Shown here in pieces: positions 1,433 through 29,152 of a stretch of DNA of 32,723 nt. The stretch spans positions 1-32,723 of the forward strand of contig BJGV01000015.1 of the NCBI GenBank assembly GCA_014190895.1, read 5' to 3'. How positions within the stretch are numbered: the first letter of the stretch is position 1; the number at the start of each line of letters is the position of its first letter. The notes under the pieces were generated by a model that made no database searches, was not told the origin of the DNA, and was given only the letters and a program-made list of their open reading frames with translations. Source of the stretch: Nitrosomonadaceae bacterium. GTDB lineage: Bacteria > Pseudomonadota > Gammaproteobacteria > Burkholderiales > Nitrosomonadaceae. Both the position numbers and the translations under genes were made by a program.

Positions 1433-2692
1433 ATGGTGGTAAAAAATGCATTTTATGCCCAATCTGGTGGAGTGACTGCTGTTATTAATGCATCCGCTGC
1501 CGGCGTTATTGAAACTGCACGTCGATACAAGGAAACAATTAATAAGGTTTACGCTGGTCGTAATGGAATTATTGGCGCACTAACCGAGGATTTAATTGAC
1601 ACGAGTAAAGATACCGTTTCAGCTATTAAATCTCTACGCTATGCTCCTTCTGGTGCTTTTGGTTCTTGTCGCTATAAACTCAAGACTCTCGAACAGAATC
1701 GACGCGAATATGAGCGCTTAATTGAAGTCTTTGAGGCTCATAATATAGGATATTTCTTTTATAATGGCGGGGGTGATTCTGCTGATACTTGTTTGAAAGT
1801 ATCGCAGTTAGCCAAGAAGTTGGGCTATTCTATTCAAGCAATTCATGTTCCAAAAACAGTAGATAACGATTTACCTATTACCGATTGTTGCCCCGGCTTT
1901 GGTTCGGTTGCCAAATATATTGCCGTATCCACGCGTGAAGCAAGTTTTGACGTAGCTAGTATGTCGAAGACATCAACGAAGGTATTTGTTTTAGAAGTGA
2001 TGGGCCGTCATGCTGGTTGGATTGCAGCGGCAGGTGGTTTAGCGTCGAGCAAGGATTGTGAAATTCCTGTTGTTATTTTGTTTCCAGAAATTACATTCGA
2101 CCGAAAAAAATTTACAGCAAAAGTAGATAGTTACGTTAAAAAATTTGGCTATTGCTCGGTAGTAGTATCCGAGGGCGTTAAGAGCGCGGACGGAGCTTTT
2201 CTTTCTGATCAAGGTTTGCGCGATGCCTTTGGTCATGCCCAATTAGGAGGTGTAGCACCCATAGTAGCAAATATTATCAAGGACGACTTGGGTCTTAAAT
2301 ATCACTGGAGTGTGGCTGATTATTTGCAGCGCGCTGCTCGTCATATTGCATCTAAGACGGATGTTGATCAAGCTTATGCAATGGGCAAGGCTGCGGTAGA
2401 ATTTGCTATTAAGGGATATAGTGCGGTAATGCCCACAATAGACCGTCTGTCCAACAATCCTTACAAATGGAAAGTTGGCATGGCCCAATTACTTAAAGTC
2501 GCCAACGTAGAAAAAATGATGCCTAGTAATTTTATTAGTAAGGATGGCTTTGGTATTACTGAGAAATGTCGTGAGTATCTTGTGCCACTCATTAGGGGCG
2601 AAGATTACCCACCTTATAAGAACGGTCTACCTAATTACGTGCGTTTGAAAAATATAGCTGTTAAGAAAAAATTGAGTGATTTCAAGATTTAA
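1433..2692 (+). CDS. pfp: Pyrophosphate-dependent 6-phosphofructokinase
   Basis: The 419-residue product belongs to the PfkA family and phosphorylates fructose 6-phosphate using pyrophosphate, reversibly. It begins with the family N-terminus AQSGGVTAVIN and carries NGGGDSADT, the PKTVDND catalytic segment and EVMGRHAGW for substrate binding. The Asp after the glycine run and the Lys in PKTVDND are the replacements that distinguish PPi-users from ATP-users, where Gly occupies these places. The ATG at 1433 has an AGGA Shine-Dalgarno 5-6 bases upstream. The gene sits between adk and a membrane pyrophosphatase, a neighbourhood seen in nitrosomonads and betaproteobacterial methylotrophs. This suggests a PPi-linked carbon metabolism in which the enzyme can run in both glycolytic and gluconeogenic directions. 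Confidence 0.93.
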   Translation: MVVKNAFYAQSGGVTAVINASAAGVIETARRYKETINKVYAGRNGIIGALTEDLIDTSKDTVSAIKSLRYAPSGAFGSCRYKLKTLEQNRREYERLIEVFEAHNIGYFFYNGGGDSADTCLKVSQLAKKLGYSIQAIHVPKTVDNDLPITDCCPGFGSVAKYIAVSTREASFDVASMSKTSTKVFVLEVMGRHAGWIAAAGGLASSKDCEIPVVILFPEITFDRKKFTAKVDSYVKKFGYCSVVVSEGVKSADGAFLSDQGLRDAFGHAQLGGVAPIVANIIKDDLGLKYHWSVADYLQRAARHIASKTDVDQAYAMGKAAVEFAIKGYSAVMPTIDRLSNNPYKWKVGMAQLLKVANVEKMMPSNFISKDGFGITEKCREYLVPLIRGEDYPPYKNGLPNYVRLKNIAVKKKLSDFKI

Positions 2693-2794
2693 ATTATCTT
2701 ATTTATCAAACAATAGGCAGGTTTTTAATGTAAAATTGCCGGGTCAATATTTCATGTAAGTTCTTAAACGGTCTGACTTTAACTGGAGATTTAA

Positions 2795-4831
2795 ATGGGT
2801 GCTGGTTTAATTATTGCCATTGTTTGTGCGATGGCGGCGTTGCTGTATGGGGCGTTATCAATCAAATGGATTGTGGCCTTGCCAAGTGGTAACGAGCGTA
2901 TGCGTGAAATTGCTACGGCAATCCAGCAGGGCGCATCCGCTTACCTTAATCGACAATATGCCACCATCGGCATCGTTGGTTTAATTTTATTAGTAGCTAT
3001 TTTTGCCGCATTAGGTTGGCAAACCGCTGTTGGCTTTGCTCTTGGAGCTTTTTTGTCTGGTCTTGCTGGTTATGTGGGCATGAATGTTTCTGTTCGTGCC
3101 AATGTGCGCACAGCAGAAGCAGCCAAAAATGGTCTAGGTGCGGCGCTGGATGTTGCTTTTAGAGGTGGTGCAATTACTGGTATGTTAGTGGTTGGTTTGG
3201 GTCTGTTAGGCGTAGCGGGTTACTATGCATTTCTTACCACTGGTTTGAATGTTCCCGTAACAAAAGCAACTCATGCTTTAGTCGGACTAGCCTTCGGTAG
3301 CTCACTGATCTCTATTTTTGCTCGCCTTGGTGGGGGTATTTTTACTAAGGGTGCAGATGTAGGCGCGGATTTGGTGGGCAAAGTTGAAGCCGGTATTCCT
3401 GAGGATGATCCGCGTAATCCAGCGGTGATCGCTGATAATGTTGGCGATAATGTAGGCGATTGTGCTGGCATGGCTGCAGATTTATTTGAGACCTACGCCG
3501 TAACTATTATTGCTACTATGCTACTTGGCGGCTTGTTGATTGCCCCTGGCAATCCGAATGCGGTACTTTACCCCTTAGTTTTAGGTGGTTTTTCTATTAT
3601 CGCCTCAATTATTGGTTGTTATTTTGTCAAGGTTCGCGAGGGCGGCAAAATCATGAACGCACTTTATCGTGGACTAGCTGTTGCCGGTATTCTAGCGGCA
3701 ATCGCTTATTACCCTATTACTAGTGTAATGATGGGTGATGGAGTGATGATCAGTGGCCAATTAATCACCTCTATGAAACTGTATCTTGCAGGACTGGTTG
3801 GTCTAGTACTTACTGCAGCCATGGTCTGGATTACTGAATATTACACTTCTACTGAGTACGCACCGGTACAACATATTGCCGAGGCTTCTAGTACCGGTCA
3901 CGGTACTAACGTTATTGCTGGTCTGGGTGTATCAATGAAATCTACAGCCGCTCCGGTAATTGCTGTATGTCTTTCAATCTGGTGTGCACATGAATTAGCG
4001 GGTCTTTATGGCGTAGCTGTTGCTGCAACGTCAATGCTATCCATGGCTGGTATTATTGTAGCGCTCGATGCCTATGGACCAATTACCGATAATGCTGGCG
4101 GTATTGCGCAAATGGCCGATTTACCACAGGCAATTCGTGACATTACCGATCCTTTGGATGCCGTTGGCAACACTACCAAGGCAGTGACGAAAGGTTATGC
4201 TATCGGTTCTGCTGGTTTGGCTGCATTAGTTTTGTTTGCAGATTATACGCACGGACTCTCTGATGTTGGTAAAATCGTCACCTTTGATCTGTCCAACCAT
4301 ATGGTAATTATCGGTCTCTTTATAGGTGGTATGGTGCCTTATTTATTTGGGGCCATGGCAATGGAAGCTGTTGGTCGTGCCGCAGGTTCTGTGGTAGTAG
4401 AGGTCCGTCGTCAATTCCGAGAAATTAAAGGTATTATGGAGGGCACGGCTAAACCAGATTATTCCAAAGCCGTAGATATGGTAACTAAAGCGGCCATTAA
4501 AGAAATGGTCGTTCCGTCTCTATTACCTGTAGCGGTGCCGGTGATCGTTGGTTTAGTGCTTGGTCCAGTGGCTTTAGGTGGGGTACTAATCGGCGCCATT
4601 ATAACTGGTATTTTTGTAGCCATTTCTATGACCGCCGGTGGTGGTGCCTGGGATAATGCCAAGAAATATATCGAAGATGGTCACTATGGCGGGAAGGGTT
4701 CGGAGGCACACAAGGCCGCCGTGACTGGGGATACTGTTGGTGATCCTTATAAGGATACTGCTGGTCCAGCCATTAACCCACTTATTAAGATCATGAATAT
4801 TGTTGCGTTATTAATTGTTCCTTTGTTGTAA
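2795..4831 (+). CDS. hppA: K+-independent H+-translocating pyrophosphatase
   Basis: The product is 678 residues, very hydrophobic, and has the typical size and about 16 membrane spans of the M-PPase family. It hydrolyses pyrophosphate and pumps protons out of the cytoplasm. The PPi-binding signature [11 protein letters not shown] begins near residue 187 and is followed by the acidic [21 protein letters not shown] stretch and a second acidic motif [14 protein letters not shown] near the C-terminus. The GNTTKAVT motif has Lys (about 462) and Thr (about 465) at the positions that mark K+-independent enzymes; K+-dependent ones have Ala there. The start has the Shine-Dalgarno TGGAG 7 bases upstream. 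It follows pfp by about 100 bases. PPi made in biosynthesis could thus either drive proton pumping or feed phosphofructokinase. Confidence 0.95.
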
Positions 4832-8767: not shown

Positions 8768-9364
8768 TTATAATTTATCAATCATCCTCTCTACAAGTTT
8801 TTTGACAGGCGAGAAACTGCGTCGATGCACTACTGATGGCCCATGTTTCTGCAGAGCTGAAATATGCCCCTTAGTCGGATACCCTTTATGTTGATCGAAT
8901 CCATAATTTGGGAAGCAGTGATGTAATCTAAGCATTTCAGCGTCACGTGCTGTCTTAGCCAGAATTGAAGCAGCAGAGATTTCTGGTACTAGGTTGTCCC
9001 CTCCAATAATAGTCTCAGTAGGAAAATCTAGACAAGGACTGCGATTTCCATCTACTAAGACCTTATTGGGAACAAAAGAGAGACTCTCAACTGCACGCTT
9101 CATGGCCAGTAAGCTAGCTTGTAGAATATTTAATTGATCTATCTCTTCAACTGAAGCAAAGGCAATTGCCCATGCAATTGAACGCGTTTTAATAATAAGC
9201 GTTAGATCATCTCGTTTTTTCTCACTCAATTTCTTTGAATCTGCTAACCCCGCTATTTTGTAATCCGGATCAAGGACTACACAGGCTGCAAATACTGGTC
9301 CTGCCAGAGGCCCTCTACCGGCCTCATCTACGCCACAAATCCATTCAAATTTCTTCACCAGCAT
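8768..9364 (-). CDS. rnhB: Ribonuclease HII
   Basis: The 198-residue enzyme removes ribonucleotides from DNA and RNA-DNA hybrids. It shows [14 protein letters not shown] near residue 11 with the catalytic Asp-Glu pair, [15 protein letters not shown] with the third acidic residue, and [12 protein letters not shown] with the fourth. The tail [18 protein letters not shown] is typical. In beta- and gammaproteobacteria rnhB normally directly follows lpxB; here the nearest upstream gene is fabZ, 271 bases away, and both lpxA and lpxB are absent. Confidence 0.95.
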
Positions 9365-9635
9365 CCCCTGTGTACTCTTAAATTTTTATGCATTGAATTA
9401 TAAGAAAAAATACCGAGGAAATGACTCTTAATATAAAGATTAATAATCTCTAATTTATCGTCAAATATTATTAAAATAAATAAATTTTTAATGTATTCTG
9501 CAATCTATAAAGAGACGTAAAAGTATGATTGCAAATCAGTTTATAAGATATCAATGTCAAGTAAGTTTTGTGACAAGACATCTCAACTTTTTATTGTTTT
9601 AATTCTTTAGTTTTTGTATTTATTTTGGAAAGGCA
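9365..9635. other. AT-rich spacer where lpxA-lpxB would be
   Basis: This 271-base gap between fabZ and rnhB is very AT-rich and holds no ORF of note on either strand. No recognisable hexapeptide-repeat (LpxA) or LpxB remnant was found by eye. It is unusually long for this otherwise tight cluster and is most simply the scar of deleted genes. Confidence 0.5.
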
Positions 9636-10079
9636 CTATACATTTCGCATTGTGCACATTAACTTGGCTTCTGTGACTAGTTGACCATCTACTTCCGCTT
9701 TGGCAGAGTATTTCCATACACCCTTTATCTGTCGCAGTATCTCTACTTTAAGCGTTAATTGATCTCCAGCTTGTACAGGTTTTTTAAAACGAGCTTCATC
9801 TATGCCAACAAAATAATAAATTGAATCGTTATTAGTCTTTGCATCCATAGTTTTGAGTGTCAGAATTCCTGCAGCCTGTGCTAGCGCCTCAATAATAAGT
9901 ACACCAGGCATGATTGGGTGATGAGGGAAGTGACCGACAAAAAAAGGCTCGTTAATAGTCACATTTTTTAGTGCAATAATATCTTTACCTGGCTGGCAAG
10001 AAAGCACTCTATCCACCAATAAAAAAGGGTAGCGGTGCGGTAGATATTTTAAAATTTCGTGGATGTCCATAGCATGCAA
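9636..10079 (-). CDS. fabZ: (3R)-hydroxyacyl-ACP dehydratase FabZ
   Basis: The 147-residue hot-dog-fold enzyme dehydrates 3-hydroxyacyl-ACP in fatty acid elongation. It has [13 protein letters not shown], catalytic His50 in [12 protein letters not shown] and catalytic Glu64 in EALAQAAG. Two starts are possible: TTG at 10079 (M-H-A-M-D-I-H) with AAGGG nine bases upstream, or ATG at 10070 (M-D-I-H-E-I-L) with no useful Shine-Dalgarno; I favour TTG. In relatives fabZ lies between lpxD and lpxA. Here both flanking lpx genes are missing, but fabZ, which all membrane lipid synthesis needs, remains intact. Confidence 0.95.
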
Positions 10080-10206
10080 GATTATTTACCCTTTGTATTT
10101 ATGAAAAATTTCTTCAAAAAAGACCGTTATTTGCTCGATAGTACTTTAAATAAATTGTTAGTCACACTCATGCATTAATTAAACCTTTTAACAATGATTA
10201 ATGAAT

Positions 10207-12489
10207 TTAGAATTGTTGTCCAAATTCAAATTGAAACGGTTGCATGTAATCACCGGGCTGTTTATTAAGCGGATAGCCAAGACTCACTTTAAGTGGGCCC
10301 ATTGGAGAGACCCATGAAACGGCAACTCCAGTAGAGTACCGCATACCTTCAGATTGTGGGTATATCCCACCAGGTCCCCATACCCCACCAGCATCTAGGA
10401 ATCCACTCACCCTTAGCGTTCTATCACTTTTCATACCAGGCATTGGAAATAAAAGCTCCGTACTTCCTATTAGACGTTTATTGCCACCTAGCGCTCTATT
10501 GCTGTCATCACGGGGACCCAATGAACTGATCATATAACCACGTACCGAGGTGTTACCACCAGCAAAAAAGTTCTTAAAGTAAGGCAAAGGTCTTCCATCG
10601 TAGCCATTACCATAGGATGCTTCTCCCCTCAACAGTAGGGTAAAATTATCTGTAATAGGCTGCCAATATTTACTCTCTAGATTTACTTTGTAATAGTTAA
10701 GATCAGCGCCTGGTAAACCTACTTCAACAAACACTCTCTGTGTTGTGCCAGAGGTGGTCCAGATAGCGCTATCTCGACCATCACGCGAAAATCTTATAGA
10801 TGCTGGCAAAGCGCTGGTTTGAACGCCAAATACCCTGACAAATTCTCTAGCGCGCGTCGGACTGAGGGAACTTAAATGTTGTTCTGTCATTTCGGCACCA
10901 AGACCAACCGTGATTATATCCTTCTCATTGATCGGCAGTCCGGAACGAATACCAACACCATAAGTGGTAGTGTTAATGTTAGCCACTGCATTTAGATTTT
11001 TGGTATTCAAGGCACGATAATAAATGTCACCCCCTGCGGTTATTCCATCAAGAGTAAAATAAGGGTCGGTGTAGGACAGCGAGTAAACTTTGTTAACAGC
11101 GCCTGTGGCAGCAGTCAACGCAAGAGTTTTACCAGTACCAAATAGATTCTCCTGCTGGATATTACCATTTAGCATGATGCCTTCTTGTTGAGAATAACCT
11201 ACTCCAAACATTACATTTCCAGTGGGTTTTTCAGTGACTTTAAATTTTATATCAATTTTATCATTGCTACCCTCAACTGCTGGCGTCTCTAAGTTCACGG
11301 CAGAAAAGTAGTTTGTTCTGTCTATGCGTTGCTTAGAGCGATTAATTTTGGCAGTTGAATACCAACCACCTTCGAGCTGACGTATTTCTCGACGTATTAC
11401 TGAGTCACGGGTACGAATGTTACCCTCTATGACAACGCGTCTGACATAAACGCGCAGACCAGGATCAATAGAGAAATGAAAACTTACCTCTTGTTTTTCT
11501 TTATTTAGTTCTGGCGTTGCATTGACACTGGCAAATGCATAACCGCTCTCTCCCAATCCATCGGTAATCATTTTAACGGATTCTGTTAGTTTTTTACGTG
11601 AAAATACATCGCCTGATTTAATCAGTATGAGTTTCTTTAAATCAGCTTCCGGCATGTCTGTTTTACCAGATTGTGTTACCTCAGAGACCTTATATTGAGC
11701 ACCTTCGCTTATATTGACTGTAATATAGATCTCCCGCATGTCAGGCGTGACTGATACTTGGGTGGAGTCGATATTAAATTCTAGATAACCGTTATCAAGA
11801 TAGTACGAGCGTAATGTTTCTAGATCAGCAGACAGTTTTTGTTTTGAGTACTGATCATTTTTTGTGAACCAAGAAATTAAATTAGGCGGTTTTAGTGCAA
11901 ATAGATCCGTTAGTTCTTTTTCCTTAAAAGCGTTAATCCCGATAAGATTTATTTTTCTAATTCTCGCAACCTCGCCTTCGTCAATAGAAAAATTAATTGC
12001 AACGCGATTACGCTCGAGCGGTGTAACTGTAGAAGTAATTTTTATAGAGTACCTGCCTCGACTAAGATACTGCTGCTTCAATTCAGTTTCTGCTTTATCT
12101 AGTACAACCCGATCAAATGTACGAGACATCGCTAAACCTGATTGCTGTATACTAGACTTTAACTTACCAGATTCAAACTCTTTGGCGCCAGTAATGGTAA
12201 TTTCTGAGATGGTGGGACGTTCTGTCAGTACTATGAGCAGGATGCCATTTTCAGACTCTAGTCGCACATTTTTAAAAAAACCTGTGGCATAAAGCGCCTT
12301 GATTGCGGCTTCAGCCTTATCGTCGTCCATCATGTCACCTACTTTTATTGGTAGATAACTAAACACCGTTCCTGGTTCTGTACGCTGCAATCCGTTTATC
12401 TGGATATCTTGAATTACAAAGGGTTCCTCCGCCTGCAAAATTGCAGGAAAAAAGAAAAAAATAAACATAACAAGATATCTAATTCCCAT
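10207..12489 (-). CDS. bamA: Outer membrane protein assembly factor BamA
   Basis: The 760-residue Omp85 protein is the core of the BAM complex, which inserts beta-barrels into the outer membrane. It has a signal peptide (hydrophobic core LVMFIFFFFPAIL, cleavage after QA, about residue 20), then five POTRA domains at about 21-420, and the 16-strand barrel from about 425. The VRGY motif of the loop 6 lock (GNTSVRGYM) and the C-terminal Phe signal (EFGQQF) are intact. It is three bases downstream of rseP. The genes that usually follow, skp and lpxD, are absent: the next gene is fabZ after a 127-base spacer. Confidence 0.96.
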   Translation of the reverse strand: MGIRYLVMFIFFFFPAILQAEEPFVIQDIQINGLQRTEPGTVFSYLPIKVGDMMDDDKAEAAIKALYATGFFKNVRLESENGILLIVLTERPTISEITITGAKEFESGKLKSSIQQSGLAMSRTFDRVVLDKAETELKQQYLSRGRYSIKITSTVTPLERNRVAINFSIDEGEVARIRKINLIGINAFKEKELTDLFALKPPNLISWFTKNDQYSKQKLSADLETLRSYYLDNGYLEFNIDSTQVSVTPDMREIYITVNISEGAQYKVSEVTQSGKTDMPEADLKKLILIKSGDVFSRKKLTESVKMITDGLGESGYAFASVNATPELNKEKQEVSFHFSIDPGLRVYVRRVVIEGNIRTRDSVIRREIRQLEGGWYSTAKINRSKQRIDRTNYFSAVNLETPAVEGSNDKIDIKFKVTEKPTGNVMFGVGYSQQEGIMLNGNIQQENLFGTGKTLALTAATGAVNKVYSLSYTDPYFTLDGITAGGDIYYRALNTKNLNAVANINTTTYGVGIRSGLPINEKDIITVGLGAEMTEQHLSSLSPTRAREFVRVFGVQTSALPASIRFSRDGRDSAIWTTSGTTQRVFVEVGLPGADLNYYKVNLESKYWQPITDNFTLLLRGEASYGNGYDGRPLPYFKNFFAGGNTSVRGYMISSLGPRDDSNRALGGNKRLIGSTELLFPMPGMKSDRTLRVSGFLDAGGVWGPGGIYPQSEGMRYSTGVAVSWVSPMGPLKVSLGYPLNKQPGDYMQPFQFEFGQQF

Positions 12490-22312: not shown

Positions 22313-23707
22313 ATGAAATTGAACCGCAAAAATTTTGAGATTTCTTGGCCATATCTAATGCTTACCATTTTAATTCCGAGCCTTGTTGCTTGTGGTAATG
22401 CGAACGATAACCCAACTAATGGTAAAAAATTATTAGGTCCAACTACAGGAAGACTAATCGATGCGGGCGTTGGTGGCGTTTCTTATATCACATCTTCTAA
22501 AATAGAAGGAATCACGGATGAGAAGGGCACCTATAATTATAACCACGGGGACATGGTTGAATTTAAACTGGGTAGTTTATCAATTGGTAAAGTAACGGCG
22601 GCTGCAATTGTAACCCCAATAGACTTAGCCGGAGAAAGCATTGTTAGATTAGAGAATTTACTTGTTTTATTACAATCTTTAGATGGGGACGGCAACCCTG
22701 AAAATGGGATTATTATACCAATTAATGTTGCTGCAGCTGTTGATGCGTCAATTAATCTAGACAGTGATCCCGCTATATTTATATCTTCAGATGCATTACA
22801 AGTAATCAGGAGAATTACGGGGATTGTTGGGACGATCAAGTCCAGACTAGAGGCCAGAAATCATTTTCTTTCTCAAAGCATGAATCTTCTTAGCGCTGAT
22901 GTTTGGGTTAAGTATGATGACAAGACGGCTGTTATGATCCGTACTTCGGCAGATAAAGGGGGTGAGTATTTACAAGGAGAGGCTACGCCGGATGATGTAT
23001 GTGATGCCAATCGGGTATGTGGCACTAAGGTCAGCACAGCTGGGGTGGAATACGGTATAGCAACCATATCTGAGTTTGATACAAGAGGATTTAATATCAT
23101 TGGAAAACCGATAATTGATACCAATCTTAAAGCTGGTTTGTCTCATCCGCAAACAACCTCGCGTATTCGTACCGATGGCGTCGAATTGATTGTCACGGAA
23201 ATTGTAACGATACCAAGAGAGAGAAAACAGAACAGTATTTTCAGTGAATTATTTCATATCTCTGGCACAGGCGGAGGCACATTACAGGTTGCCGCCAATA
23301 AGGGCCCTCTTAAAACTAAGATTAAGGAAAGTCGTTTTTCTGGTATAGATAATGATCCAGAAAGTATTGTTGGGGGCTGGGTGCAGGACACAACGATACT
23401 CAAAACACCAACTTATTTATTCTTCCCTAACGGAAAATTTATGCTAGTCGATCCCATTGGGGATCCTGAACGCAATGGTCACAAGAGTTGTGGTAATCCA
23501 GGTGTAGAATTTGCTACTTATACCCACGATGTCAGTAGTAAGTTTCTCGGCATTAAAGGTTTTACTTATGACACCAATGGCTGCGCAGGTTTTTCTGGGA
23601 TCGATGAAGCTACACTTCAGTTTAGTGAAAATGGCAATGCAGTAGCATTGAAAACAAAGAAGGGTACTTTAATTACATTACATCGCATCTCTAAAAAAGG
23701 TTATTAG
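22313..23707 (+). CDS. Accessory lipoprotein of unknown function
   Basis: The 464-residue product has a lipoprotein signal peptide: basic N-terminus, hydrophobic stretch at 14-25, and lipobox L-V-A-C with Cys27. Residues about 40-105 (GRLIDAGVGGVSY, GITDEKGTYNYNHGDMVEFKLGSLSIG) resemble the beta-sandwich module in many proteobacterial surface lipoproteins. Next come PIDLAGESIVRLENLLVLLQSLDGDGNPENG-like sequence (about 105-140, written here as family resemblance) and a middle region with one CDANRVCG pair that could form a disulfide. A C-terminal domain (about 355-460) carries GGWVQDT, FFPNGKFMLVDPIGD and DTNGCAGFSG, reminiscent of lipocalin-like stress or adhesin domains. The start has an AAGGAA site. 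It stands alone between cysE and aroA, where tyrosine and serine biosynthesis genes usually lie. Function unknown. Confidence 0.75.
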   Translation: MKLNRKNFEISWPYLMLTILIPSLVACGNANDNPTNGKKLLGPTTGRLIDAGVGGVSYITSSKIEGITDEKGTYNYNHGDMVEFKLGSLSIGKVTAAAIVTPIDLAGESIVRLENLLVLLQSLDGDGNPENGIIIPINVAAAVDASINLDSDPAIFISSDALQVIRRITGIVGTIKSRLEARNHFLSQSMNLLSADVWVKYDDKTAVMIRTSADKGGEYLQGEATPDDVCDANRVCGTKVSTAGVEYGIATISEFDTRGFNIIGKPIIDTNLKAGLSHPQTTSRIRTDGVELIVTEIVTIPRERKQNSIFSELFHISGTGGGTLQVAANKGPLKTKIKESRFSGIDNDPESIVGGWVQDTTILKTPTYLFFPNGKFMLVDPIGDPERNGHKSCGNPGVEFATYTHDVSSKFLGIKGFTYDTNGCAGFSGIDEATLQFSENGNAVALKTKKGTLITLHRISKKGY

Positions 23708-25927: not shown

Positions 25928-27655
25928 ATGATTACTGCCCCTGCTGCGCCTACAGAAGAAAATCCCCCCCTTGAAAGTTTTGCCAAATTATTTGAAGAGA
26001 GTCTCTCTCGCCAGGAAATGCGCATTGGCGAACTAATTACTGCGGAGGTTATTCGTGTCGACTACAATATCGTAATCGTAAACGCGGGACTTAAATCTGA
26101 AAGTTTCATTCCCGCAGAAGAGTTTAAGAATGATCAAGGTGTGATTGAAGCTAAACCAGGCGACTTTGTGAGTGTCGCTATTGAAGCTCTCGAAGATGGG
26201 CATGGCGAGACACGTTTATCACGTGATAAAGCTAAACGTTTGACGGCATGGCATGATTTAGAAATAGCTATGGAGAAAGGTGCAATTGTGCGTGGTATGG
26301 TAAATGGAAAAGTTAAGGGCGGCTTAACTGCAATGGTTAATGGTATCCGTGCTTTTTTACCCGGTTCACTAGTAGATATTCGTCCAGTTAAGGACACAAC
26401 TCCGTATGAAAACAAAGAAATGGAGTTAAAAGTTATCAAGCTTGATCGTAAACGTAATAACGTAGTTGTGTCACGTCGAGCCGTGTTGGAAGCGAGTCAA
26501 GGTGCAGACCGTCAGTCATTAATAACGAATCTACAGGAAGGTGCGGTAGTCAAGGGGGTCGTCAAAAATATTACCGATTACGGTGCGTTCATAGATTTAG
26601 GCGGCATAGATGGTTTATTACATATTACAGATCTCGCATGGCGACGGGTAAAACATCCTTCCGAGATAATTAGCGTTGGTGATGAAATTATCGCAAAAAT
26701 TCTTAAATTTGATCAAGAAAAAAATCGCGTCTCATTGGGTATGAAGCAACTAAATGAAGATCCATGGGTGGGACTCTCTCGGCGTTACCCGCATGGCACA
26801 CGTCTTTTCGGTAAAGTAAGTAATTTAACTGATTACGGTGCGTTTGTTGAGATTGAGCAAGGTATTGAGGGATTGGTGCATGTTTCTGAGATGGATTGGA
26901 CCAATAAAAATATATATCCTTCAAAGATTGTACAGTTGGGTGATGAGGTTGAAATAATGATTCTCGAGGTAGACGAGGAGCGTCGACGTATTTCACTTGG
27001 GATGAAACAGTGTAAAGTTAATCCTTGGGAAGAGTTTGCTACCAATTACAAGAAGAATGATAAAGTGCAAGGGCAGATAAAATCTATTACTGACTTTGGG
27101 GTATTTATTGGACTTCAGGGAGGCATAGATGGACTGGTGCATTTATCAGACCTTTCTTGGATTCAGGCTGGCGAAGAAGCGGTACATAGTTACAAGAAAG
27201 GTGATGATATAGAGGCGATAGTGTTAGCTATTGATGTTGAGCGGGAACGTATTTCATTAGGGATTAAGCAGATGGAGGGCGATCCATTCAATAATTTTGT
27301 TTCGGTAAATGAAAAAAATAGCATTGTTAACGGTGTGATTAAATCTATTGATGCCAAGGGTGCGGTAATTTCACTGGGCGATAATGTGGAAGGCTATCTT
27401 CGGGCTTCCGAAATATCGGGCGATCGAGTTGAGAATACCAAAATTCATTTGAAAATAGGCGATAAAATTGAAGTGATTATTACTAATGTTGATCGCAAGA
27501 ATCGAGGCATTAATCTGTCTATTAAGGAAAGAGAGATATTAAAAGAATCTGTTACGACACAGAATATTCAAAATGATAATTCGACAAATGCTGGGACCAC
27601 TAACTTGGGCGCTTTACTTAAAGCTAAGATGAATACGAAGAATTCTGAACAGTGA
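25928..27655 (+). CDS. rpsA: 30S ribosomal protein S1
   Basis: The 575-residue product has six S1 (OB-fold) repeats, at about 33-102, 120-185, 206-275, 291-361, 378-448 and 465-532. The first two bind the ribosome; the rest bind mRNA. Repeats 3-5 show the DYGAF or DFGVF with GIxGLxH signature. The C-terminal tail of about 40 residues is Asn/Thr-rich. The ribosome site is weak (AGGT nine bases before ATG), as is common for rpsA. The cmk-rpsA-ihfB order is widely conserved. Confidence 0.96.
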
Positions 27656-27665
27656 GAGGATGTAT

Positions 27666-27947
27666 ATGACAAAATCAGAGTTTGTACTTAAGCTCGCAGA
27701 CCAGCATTCTCAGTTGGAGGTCAAAGATATTAAATCTGTCGTTAAGGTAATGCTCAACGCTATGGCTCAAAGTTTGTCACAAGGGCAACGTGTTGAAATT
27801 CGTGGATTTGGTAGTTTTGACTTGAATTATCGTTCGGCTCGTACGGCGCGAAATCCAAAATCCGGAGAAAAAGTTCAGATCGCCGGGAAATATGCCCTTC
27901 ATTTTAAGGCTGGAAAGAAAATGCGCGAGCAAGTAAATTACAAATAA
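27666..27947 (+). CDS. ihfB: Integration host factor beta subunit
   Basis: The 93-residue DNA-bending protein pairs with IHF alpha. It shows the HU/IHF core: MTKSEFVLKLADQ helix, EIRGFGSF and the DNA-intercalating arm RNPKSGEKVQ, then HFKAGKKMRE. The start at 27666 is preferred over an in-frame ATG at 27660, because AGAGGA lies five bases before 27666 and the family begins MTKSE. It is ten bases after rpsA and is closed by a terminator. Confidence 0.94.
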   Translation: MTKSEFVLKLADQHSQLEVKDIKSVVKVMLNAMAQSLSQGQRVEIRGFGSFDLNYRSARTARNPKSGEKVQIAGKYALHFKAGKKMREQVNYK

Positions 27948-28112: not shown

Positions 28113-28379
28113 ATGAAATATTCAATAAGATTTATCGCTGTTTTGTTGTTGCTGTTTCTCTTAAGTTTTGCTGTAAAGAACACTGAAACGGTGTCGCTAC
28201 GATATTATTTTAATTATGAATGGAGGGCACCGTTAATATTAATGGTGCTACTTTTTTTCTTCACTGGCGTGATAGTTGGAATTCTATCTTGTCTTCGCAA
28301 AATTGTTAGACAGAGACGTGAAATTATTACTCTTAAAGAGGAGCGCTCAACCGTTGATACATATAATAAAATTTCTTGA
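28113..28379 (+). CDS. lapA: LapA-domain inner membrane protein (DUF1049)
   Basis: The 88-residue protein has two transmembrane helices (about 5-22 and 40-62) joined by a short periplasmic turn with KNTETVSLRYYF, and a basic cytoplasmic tail (RKIVRQRREIITLKEER). This is the layout of LapA, partner of LapB in control of LPS synthesis through LpxC proteolysis. The ATG at 28113 is preferred over a TTG at 28104. In relatives the TPR protein gene lapB follows directly; here 80 noncoding bases lead straight to pyrF. Confidence 0.8.
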   Translation: MKYSIRFIAVLLLLFLLSFAVKNTETVSLRYYFNYEWRAPLILMVLLFFFTGVIVGILSCLRKIVRQRREIITLKEERSTVDTYNKIS

Positions 28380-28459
28380 TTAAATCTCGTATAAATTTTT
28401 ATATATCCTAAGAGGTTAATCTTATTCAATTTATACCAATTGAACAGTGAAATAACTTT

Positions 28460-29152
28460 ATGAACGATCCCCGCATTATTGTTGCACTTGATTTTTCTAC
28501 CGCAAAACAAGCGTTAATGCTTGTAGATAGACTGGATAGGAAATTATGTCGAGTAAAAATAGGGAAAGAGCTTTTTACGGCTGCCGGCCCACAGTTAGTT
28601 GAAAAATTAATAAATAAAAATTTTGAGGTTTTTCTTGATTTAAAATTTCATGATATTCCAAATACTGTAGCAAATGCCTGTAAGGTAGCCTCAAATTTGG
28701 GGGTGTGGATGATAAACGTTCATGCGCTGGGCGGAAAAAAAATGCTTTCTGCGGCACGAGAAGCATTGCCTTTAGGTACAACCAAGCTCGTCGCCGTAAC
28801 TTTGCTTACGAGTCTAGGGAACGATGATTTAAGTATCATTGGTTTAAAAGAAGAGCCCGAGAGTTTAATACAAAAATTGTCTAATTTGGCAAGGAGTTGT
28901 GGTTTGGATGGCGTGGTATGTTCTGGATTAGAAACCGCGCAACTTAGGCAAACCATGGGTAAAGAATTTTGTTTAGTGACACCTGGAATTCGCCCAGTTA
29001 ATTTCTCTGCGAATGACCAACAGAGAGTGACGACACCAAGGCAGGCAATAGAGAGTGGGGCAGATTATATTGTAATAGGTAGACCTATTACGCAAGCAGC
29101 AGATCCATTAATGGTGTTATGGCAAGTAAGTGATGAAATAAGACGCGGTTAA
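28460..29152 (+). CDS. pyrF: Orotidine 5'-phosphate decarboxylase
   Basis: The 230-residue TIM-barrel enzyme makes UMP. The catalytic network is intact: Asp11 region IVALDF, Lys33 in VKIG, and the DLKFHDIPNTV signature with Asp60, Lys62 and Asp65. The phosphate-binding TPGIRP and IVIGRPIT segments lie near the C-terminus. It fits the group I short bacterial form. No clear terminator follows; only AT-rich palindromes occur at 29154-29205. Confidence 0.95.
   Translation: MNDPRIIVALDFSTAKQALMLVDRLDRKLCRVKIGKELFTAAGPQLVEKLINKNFEVFLDLKFHDIPNTVANACKVASNLGVWMINVHALGGKKMLSAAREALPLGTTKLVAVTLLTSLGNDDLSIIGLKEEPESLIQKLSNLARSCGLDGVVCSGLETAQLRQTMGKEFCLVTPGIRPVNFSANDQQRVTTPRQAIESGADYIVIGRPITQAADPLMVLWQVSDEIRRG

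Follow-up and report, generated by a model that had tools for sequence, protein, structure and literature searches.

LapB is known to control or place LpxC; in Escherichia coli, it is encoded in the lapA-lapB-pyrF (YciS/YciM) LpxC-control module. Deletion of lapA in this species causes only minor phenotypes, and the action of LapA on LapB is unclear (PMC12444477). In Caulobacter, LptC2, LptF2, and LptG2 have been proposed to be sphingolipid carriers; the same paper states that the route taken by bacterial sphingolipids to the outer membrane is otherwise unknown (PMC11324152). Within the Nitrosomonadaceae, lpxK is the only one of nine Kdo2-lipid A genes present in Nitrosomonas europaea (PMC3087551), while ceramide and phosphosphingolipid genes have been reported in N. 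eutropha (PMC9386255; PMC11324152), which carries ceramide/CPG2 genes (PMC11324152).

Here, we analyze a window of 32,723 nucleotides from a Nitrosomonadaceae bacterium, located on contig C15 of a 1.32-Mb genome that comprises 25 contigs and is rated 99.97% complete, by means of gene presence and absence, gene order, phylogeny, and selection. Like the E. coli module, this genome has lapA upstream of pyrF, as well as ftsH; unlike it, the genome lacks both lapB and the target LpxC. The relevant features of the window are the following:

8768..12489, - strand: bamA-fabZ-rnhB, from the ORF list, matching the BamA, FabZ, and RNase HII equivalogs
25928..27655, + strand: rpsA (30S ribosomal protein S1), conserved left flank (NF004954, E 1.8e-289, 960.7 bits)
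27660..27947, + strand: ihfB (integration host factor beta), conserved left flank, assigned from its sequence and the same position in the compared loci
28113..28379, + strand: lapA, 88 aa, under purifying selection (PF06305 LapA_dom, E 4.4e-13)
28380..28459, no strand: gap of 80 bp with no gene, the site of lapB in other families of the order by locus comparison
28460..29152, + strand: pyrF (orotidine 5'-phosphate decarboxylase), conserved right flank (PF00215 OMPdecase, E 3.8e-63)

The lapA gene is intact, with an ATG at 28113 and a stop at 28379, and its product scores 49.4 bits against PF06305, above the curated cut-off of 28. As read from the sequence and its alignment, LapA consists of two hydrophobic segments and a basic tail (RQRREIITLK...) predicted to be cytosolic. 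A sequence-only reading of this DNA had pointed out that just 80 noncoding bases separate lapA from pyrF and that lapB is usually encoded directly 3' of lapA. Both observations hold: lapB does not follow lapA in this genome, positions 28380-28459 are without any ORF of their own in the ORF list of the window, and almost all loci read outside the Nitrosomonadaceae carry lapB in this interval, which argues that its absence here is not due to chance. Elsewhere in the window, the product of 22313-23707, which is 464 aa long and begins like a lipoprotein, has no Pfam or NCBIfam match, and a pyrophosphate-dependent phosphofructokinase adjoins a membrane pyrophosphatase (1433-4831).

The sequence-only reading had also taken lapB to be absent, had proposed a genome search for lapB, ftsH, and lpxC, and had named a complete lapB elsewhere, together with lpxC, as the finding that would speak against it. 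We looked for both genes genome-wide and found neither: a profile search with NF008756 detected no LapB anywhere in the genome, and a whole-genome search returned no match for LpxC. A single intact copy of ftsH is present, so that FtsH is encoded in the absence of LpxC as its target. Two weak matches to NF008756 (E 3.3e-5 and 2.5e-4) are generic TPR proteins rather than LapB, and a candidate lapB on contig C13, the sole Zn_ribbon_LapB match, was judged from its sequence to be a RadA-like protein. Within the window, none of lpxD, lpxA, and lpxB is found between bamA, fabZ, and rnhB, which are separated by short gaps (9365-9635 and 10080-10206).

These absences are shared by the whole family. 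We surveyed 25 Nitrosomonadaceae genomes and 16 genomes from other families of the same order, and found LapB, LpxC, and the Kdo transferase KdtA each in 0 of the 25 family genomes versus 16 of the 16 outside it (for LapB, outside E values of 1e-26 to 1e-95); the LpxC and KdtA steps of the Raetz pathway are thus missing throughout the family. The gene order is rpsA-ihfB-lapA-lapB-pyrF in the named loci outside the Nitrosomonadaceae, where lapB usually abuts or overlaps the pyrF frame, and rpsA-ihfB-lapA-pyrF inside it, with the same order in Nitrosomonas and Nitrosospira loci. Single-contig family genomes of 3.1-3.7 Mb also lack lapB. The loss of lapB is therefore ancestral to the whole Nitrosomonadaceae and not particular to the window genome. 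An orphan LpxK is kept in all five Nitrosomonas-type genomes (G010, G013, G016, G019, and G022; E 1e-51 to 1e-73) and was not found in the other three Nitrosomonadaceae genera sampled, a restriction to one genus that agrees with the published lpxK-only result for N. europaea (PMC3087551). The proposal that this bacterium is without LPS is much strengthened by the family-wide pattern, from which Nitrosomonadaceae appear to make no LPS, and the loss of lapB was probably part of an ancestral LPS replacement, probably by sphingolipids.

Our survey of the Lpt exporter covered LptD, LptF, and LptG. The outer-membrane translocon LptD is encoded in all 25 Nitrosomonadaceae genomes, and LptF together with LptG in 23 of them, the two misses being genomes rated 72% and 89% complete. 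Since the Lpt bridge is kept without lipid A, another cargo is needed. E. coli BL21(DE3) has two LptF/LptG pairs, a housekeeping pair beside pepA and a second one beside spt. In trees that placed both paralogues together and included the E. coli controls, the LptF and LptG of the family are distant from their counterparts elsewhere in the order; its only pair, which, unlike the E. coli one, is not beside pepA, groups with the spt-linked pair of BL21 (support of 100/99 for LptF and 99/99 for LptG) and does not branch with the LPS-type housekeeping pair. The branches in these trees are long, yet support is high. BLAST scores for LptF are 187 bits to the spt type versus at most 122 to any other, and those for LptG are a near-tie, with 165 bits to the spt type versus 169 to another. 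Adjoining the family lptF/lptG is the gene for a 384-aa protein with 47% identity to YghO, a neighbor of the spt cluster in E. coli. In the window genome (L207:12057-15520), the genes that follow lptFG encode a glycosyltransferase of the GT2 type, a protein of 427 aa with no assigned family, and a cytidylyltransferase resembling KdsB, and the same gene order occurs at one end of L209.

The LptD proteins of the family form one clade nested within those of the order, with a stem-to-depth ratio of 0.51, compared with 0.2-0.71 for RpsA, PyrF, IhfB, and SurA, which indicates that LptD has been inherited vertically in the Nitrosomonadaceae. The simplest reading of these trees would be that the family exchanged its inner-membrane permease while holding on to the translocon of the outer membrane. 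The outer-membrane lipid exporter of the Nitrosomonadaceae probably carries sphingolipids now, although LptD could serve another lipid. On balance, we lean slightly toward the view that the family replaced LPS with sphingolipids by swapping LptFG only, re-using the inherited LptD as a sphingolipid translocon.

Almost all Nitrosomonadaceae genomes encode an additional SPT/BioF-type enzyme. The cut-off of the serine palmitoyltransferase (SPT) equivalog, NF047599, is 500 bits, and it was reached by six of six family genomes tested plus one (G000, G002, G006, G008, G010, G015, and G016), at 569-605 bits, including 593.7 bits for the window genome, and by none of 13 outside candidates, which all score 290 bits or less. 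Matches to NF047600 outside the family had looked SPT-like, and proved to have their best scores to BioF or glycine C-acetyltransferase. In the window genome, acpR-spt-cerR-aasR all run in one direction (L146), a YghO/CerS-type protein is encoded at L207, and BLAST of the sphingolipid genes to the E. coli BL21 cluster gives 41-53% identity. On the basis of published gene sets, the YghO-type protein is presumed to be a ceramide synthase, and we infer from the genes that sphingolipids fill the outer leaflet of Nitrosomonadaceae. We set aside the nearness of spt to lptD in the genus of the window (about 8 kb) because housekeeping genes, identified from their sequence as trx, rho, and lysS, intervene in the window genome. 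The interval between lptD and spt also holds a gene for the hopanoid-associated epimerase HpnA (L146:10630-11625; 488 bits, cut-off 368), which was not seen at this position in G006 or G002, and adjoining short frames at L146:11622-12288 resemble pieces of a broken copper-transporting ATPase.

The fate of LapA differs among the relatives of the window genome. Among seven readable loci of its genus, lapA is lost in four (G001, G002, G005, and G006) and kept in the window genome, G003, and G004; in the tree, the four congeners without lapA group as a single clade, the sister of which carries lapA. By locus comparison, lapA was not seen in Nitrosomonas sp. Nm132 either. In the congeners without lapA (L162, L163, L164, and L165), a terminator-like hairpin (GGCATGATATTGTTATCATGCC followed by a T-run) lies 3' of ihfB, which suggests that, in the genomes that have kept it, lapA is probably transcribed from a promoter of its own. 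In the Nitrosospira-type L024, L025, L026, L027, L032, and L033, one or two extra LapA_dom proteins of a different subtype are encoded at other loci.

Selection on lapA was compared as the sequence-only reading had suggested; with pS saturated in comparisons of the window to its congeners, only pN/pS with bootstrap ranges was used. Values are 0.31-0.42 (85 codons) when the window is compared with three relatives that carry lapA; these relatives compared with one another give 0.09-0.43, with 0.09 between two congeners, and other genera give 0.08-0.30, indicating purifying selection in all genera tested. In the window genome, lapA is under purifying selection and is not a pseudogene. As to the earlier suggestion that LapA may be decaying or have another role, the window genome gives no support for decay, but the gene has been lost in the clade of four congeners. 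Beyond the second hydrophobic segment, the tail is 34 residues long (median) in LapB-bearing genomes, 24.5 in Nitrosospira and two small-genome genera, and 7 in Nitrosomonas, where the cytosolic tail is gone. Control genomes contain LapA_dom proteins above the cut-off where the LapB model is not over its own, which argues that LapA needs no LapB and that the membrane part is its conserved portion, whereas the loss in four congeners argues that any role of LapA is dispensable. We infer that LapA is a dispensable protein with a LapB-independent role; here, it is possibly a small inner-membrane helper, at FtsH or Lpt.

Taken together, we find it likely that LPS was lost in the ancestor of the Nitrosomonadaceae, that lapB went with it, and that sphingolipids probably took its place. 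The gap between lapA and pyrF would then be one scar of this loss. The lipid A pathway would have been lost through lpxC and kdtA, plus lpxD/A/B in the window, and LapB would have disappeared along with LpxC, its gene cleanly deleted from between lapA and pyrF. Sphingolipids would probably make up the outer leaflet, produced by acpR-spt-cerR-aasR and the presumed YghO-type ceramide synthase, and export would proceed via a single Lpt bridge, combining sphingolipid-type LptF/LptG in the inner membrane with the inherited LptD in the outer membrane. That LapA survived the loss of LapB would be explained by a non-essential role of its membrane part that does not depend on LapB, perhaps still at FtsH or Lpt. 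If lapA were instead a neutral leftover persisting by inertia only, its loss from a clade of congeners and from Nitrosomonas sp. Nm132 and the eroded tail in Nitrosomonas would be accounted for; we nevertheless regard this as unlikely, since purifying selection acts on lapA in every genus tested, since the gene has been kept from before the family radiated, and since controls have LapA_dom proteins over the cut-off where LapB is not over its own. The small size of the window genome and the four congeners without lapA could also suggest that recent genome reduction in this 1.32-Mb genome alone removed lapB and that lapA is now decaying. The timing of such an event is already refuted by the absence of lapB from 25 of 25 family genomes, including the single-contig ones of 3.1-3.7 Mb, and the pN/pS of 0.31-0.42 for lapA runs against decay, making this account very improbable.

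Two further alternatives concern the cargo of the exporter. It is conceivable that LPS or a lipid A-like glycolipid is still made by an unknown route via Lpt and, in Nitrosomonas, LpxK, considering that LptD, LptF, and LptG are kept, that LpxK is kept in five of five genomes of one genus, and that a KdsB-like cytidylyltransferase (PF02348) lies close to lptFG. We judge this to be rather unlikely, given that LpxC and KdtA are missing from all 25 genomes and LpxK from the other three genera sampled, and that the only LptFG are of the spt-linked type. The glycosyltransferase gene near lptFG would fit the retention of Lpt for some other surface lipid or glycan, neither LPS nor sphingolipid, an idea to which we give little credence because the sphingolipid-type LptFG stand beside a YghO homologue and SPT is present in every family genome tested. 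A sphingolipid outer leaflet that arose with the ancestral loss of LPS stays our preferred explanation.

While the N. europaea lpxK-only result and the N. eutropha sphingolipid genes were known before, the family-wide co-loss, the fate of LapA, and the exporter swap are apparently new. The persistence of LapA without LapB, with a shrinking tail, is relevant to the question of what LapA does in E. coli. Moreover, a cultivable family without the lipid A pathway, with one spt-linked LptF/LptG pair and one LptD, would allow sphingolipid export to be tested without interference from LPS. The published survey of N. europaea (PMC3087551) concerns the same family and likewise found nearly all lpx genes missing, but it dealt with one genome and a note on N. 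multiformis, and LapB, LapA, Lpt, and SPT were not joined. With the LPS-less sphingolipid outer membrane of the Sphingomonas type, the Nitrosomonadaceae share a proteobacterial-type SPT and the loss of lipid A genes; in contrast, they are betaproteobacterial ammonia oxidizers that have kept LapA, and their sphingolipids are predicted from genes. The spt clusters of Caulobacter and E. coli BL21 (LptF2/G2) are similar in their homologous LptF/LptG, SPT, AcpR, CerR, AasR, and YghO, but there the second pair is additional to an LPS-type LptFG, whereas the Nitrosomonadaceae have no pair other than the spt-type LptFG and have lost the lipid A pathway.
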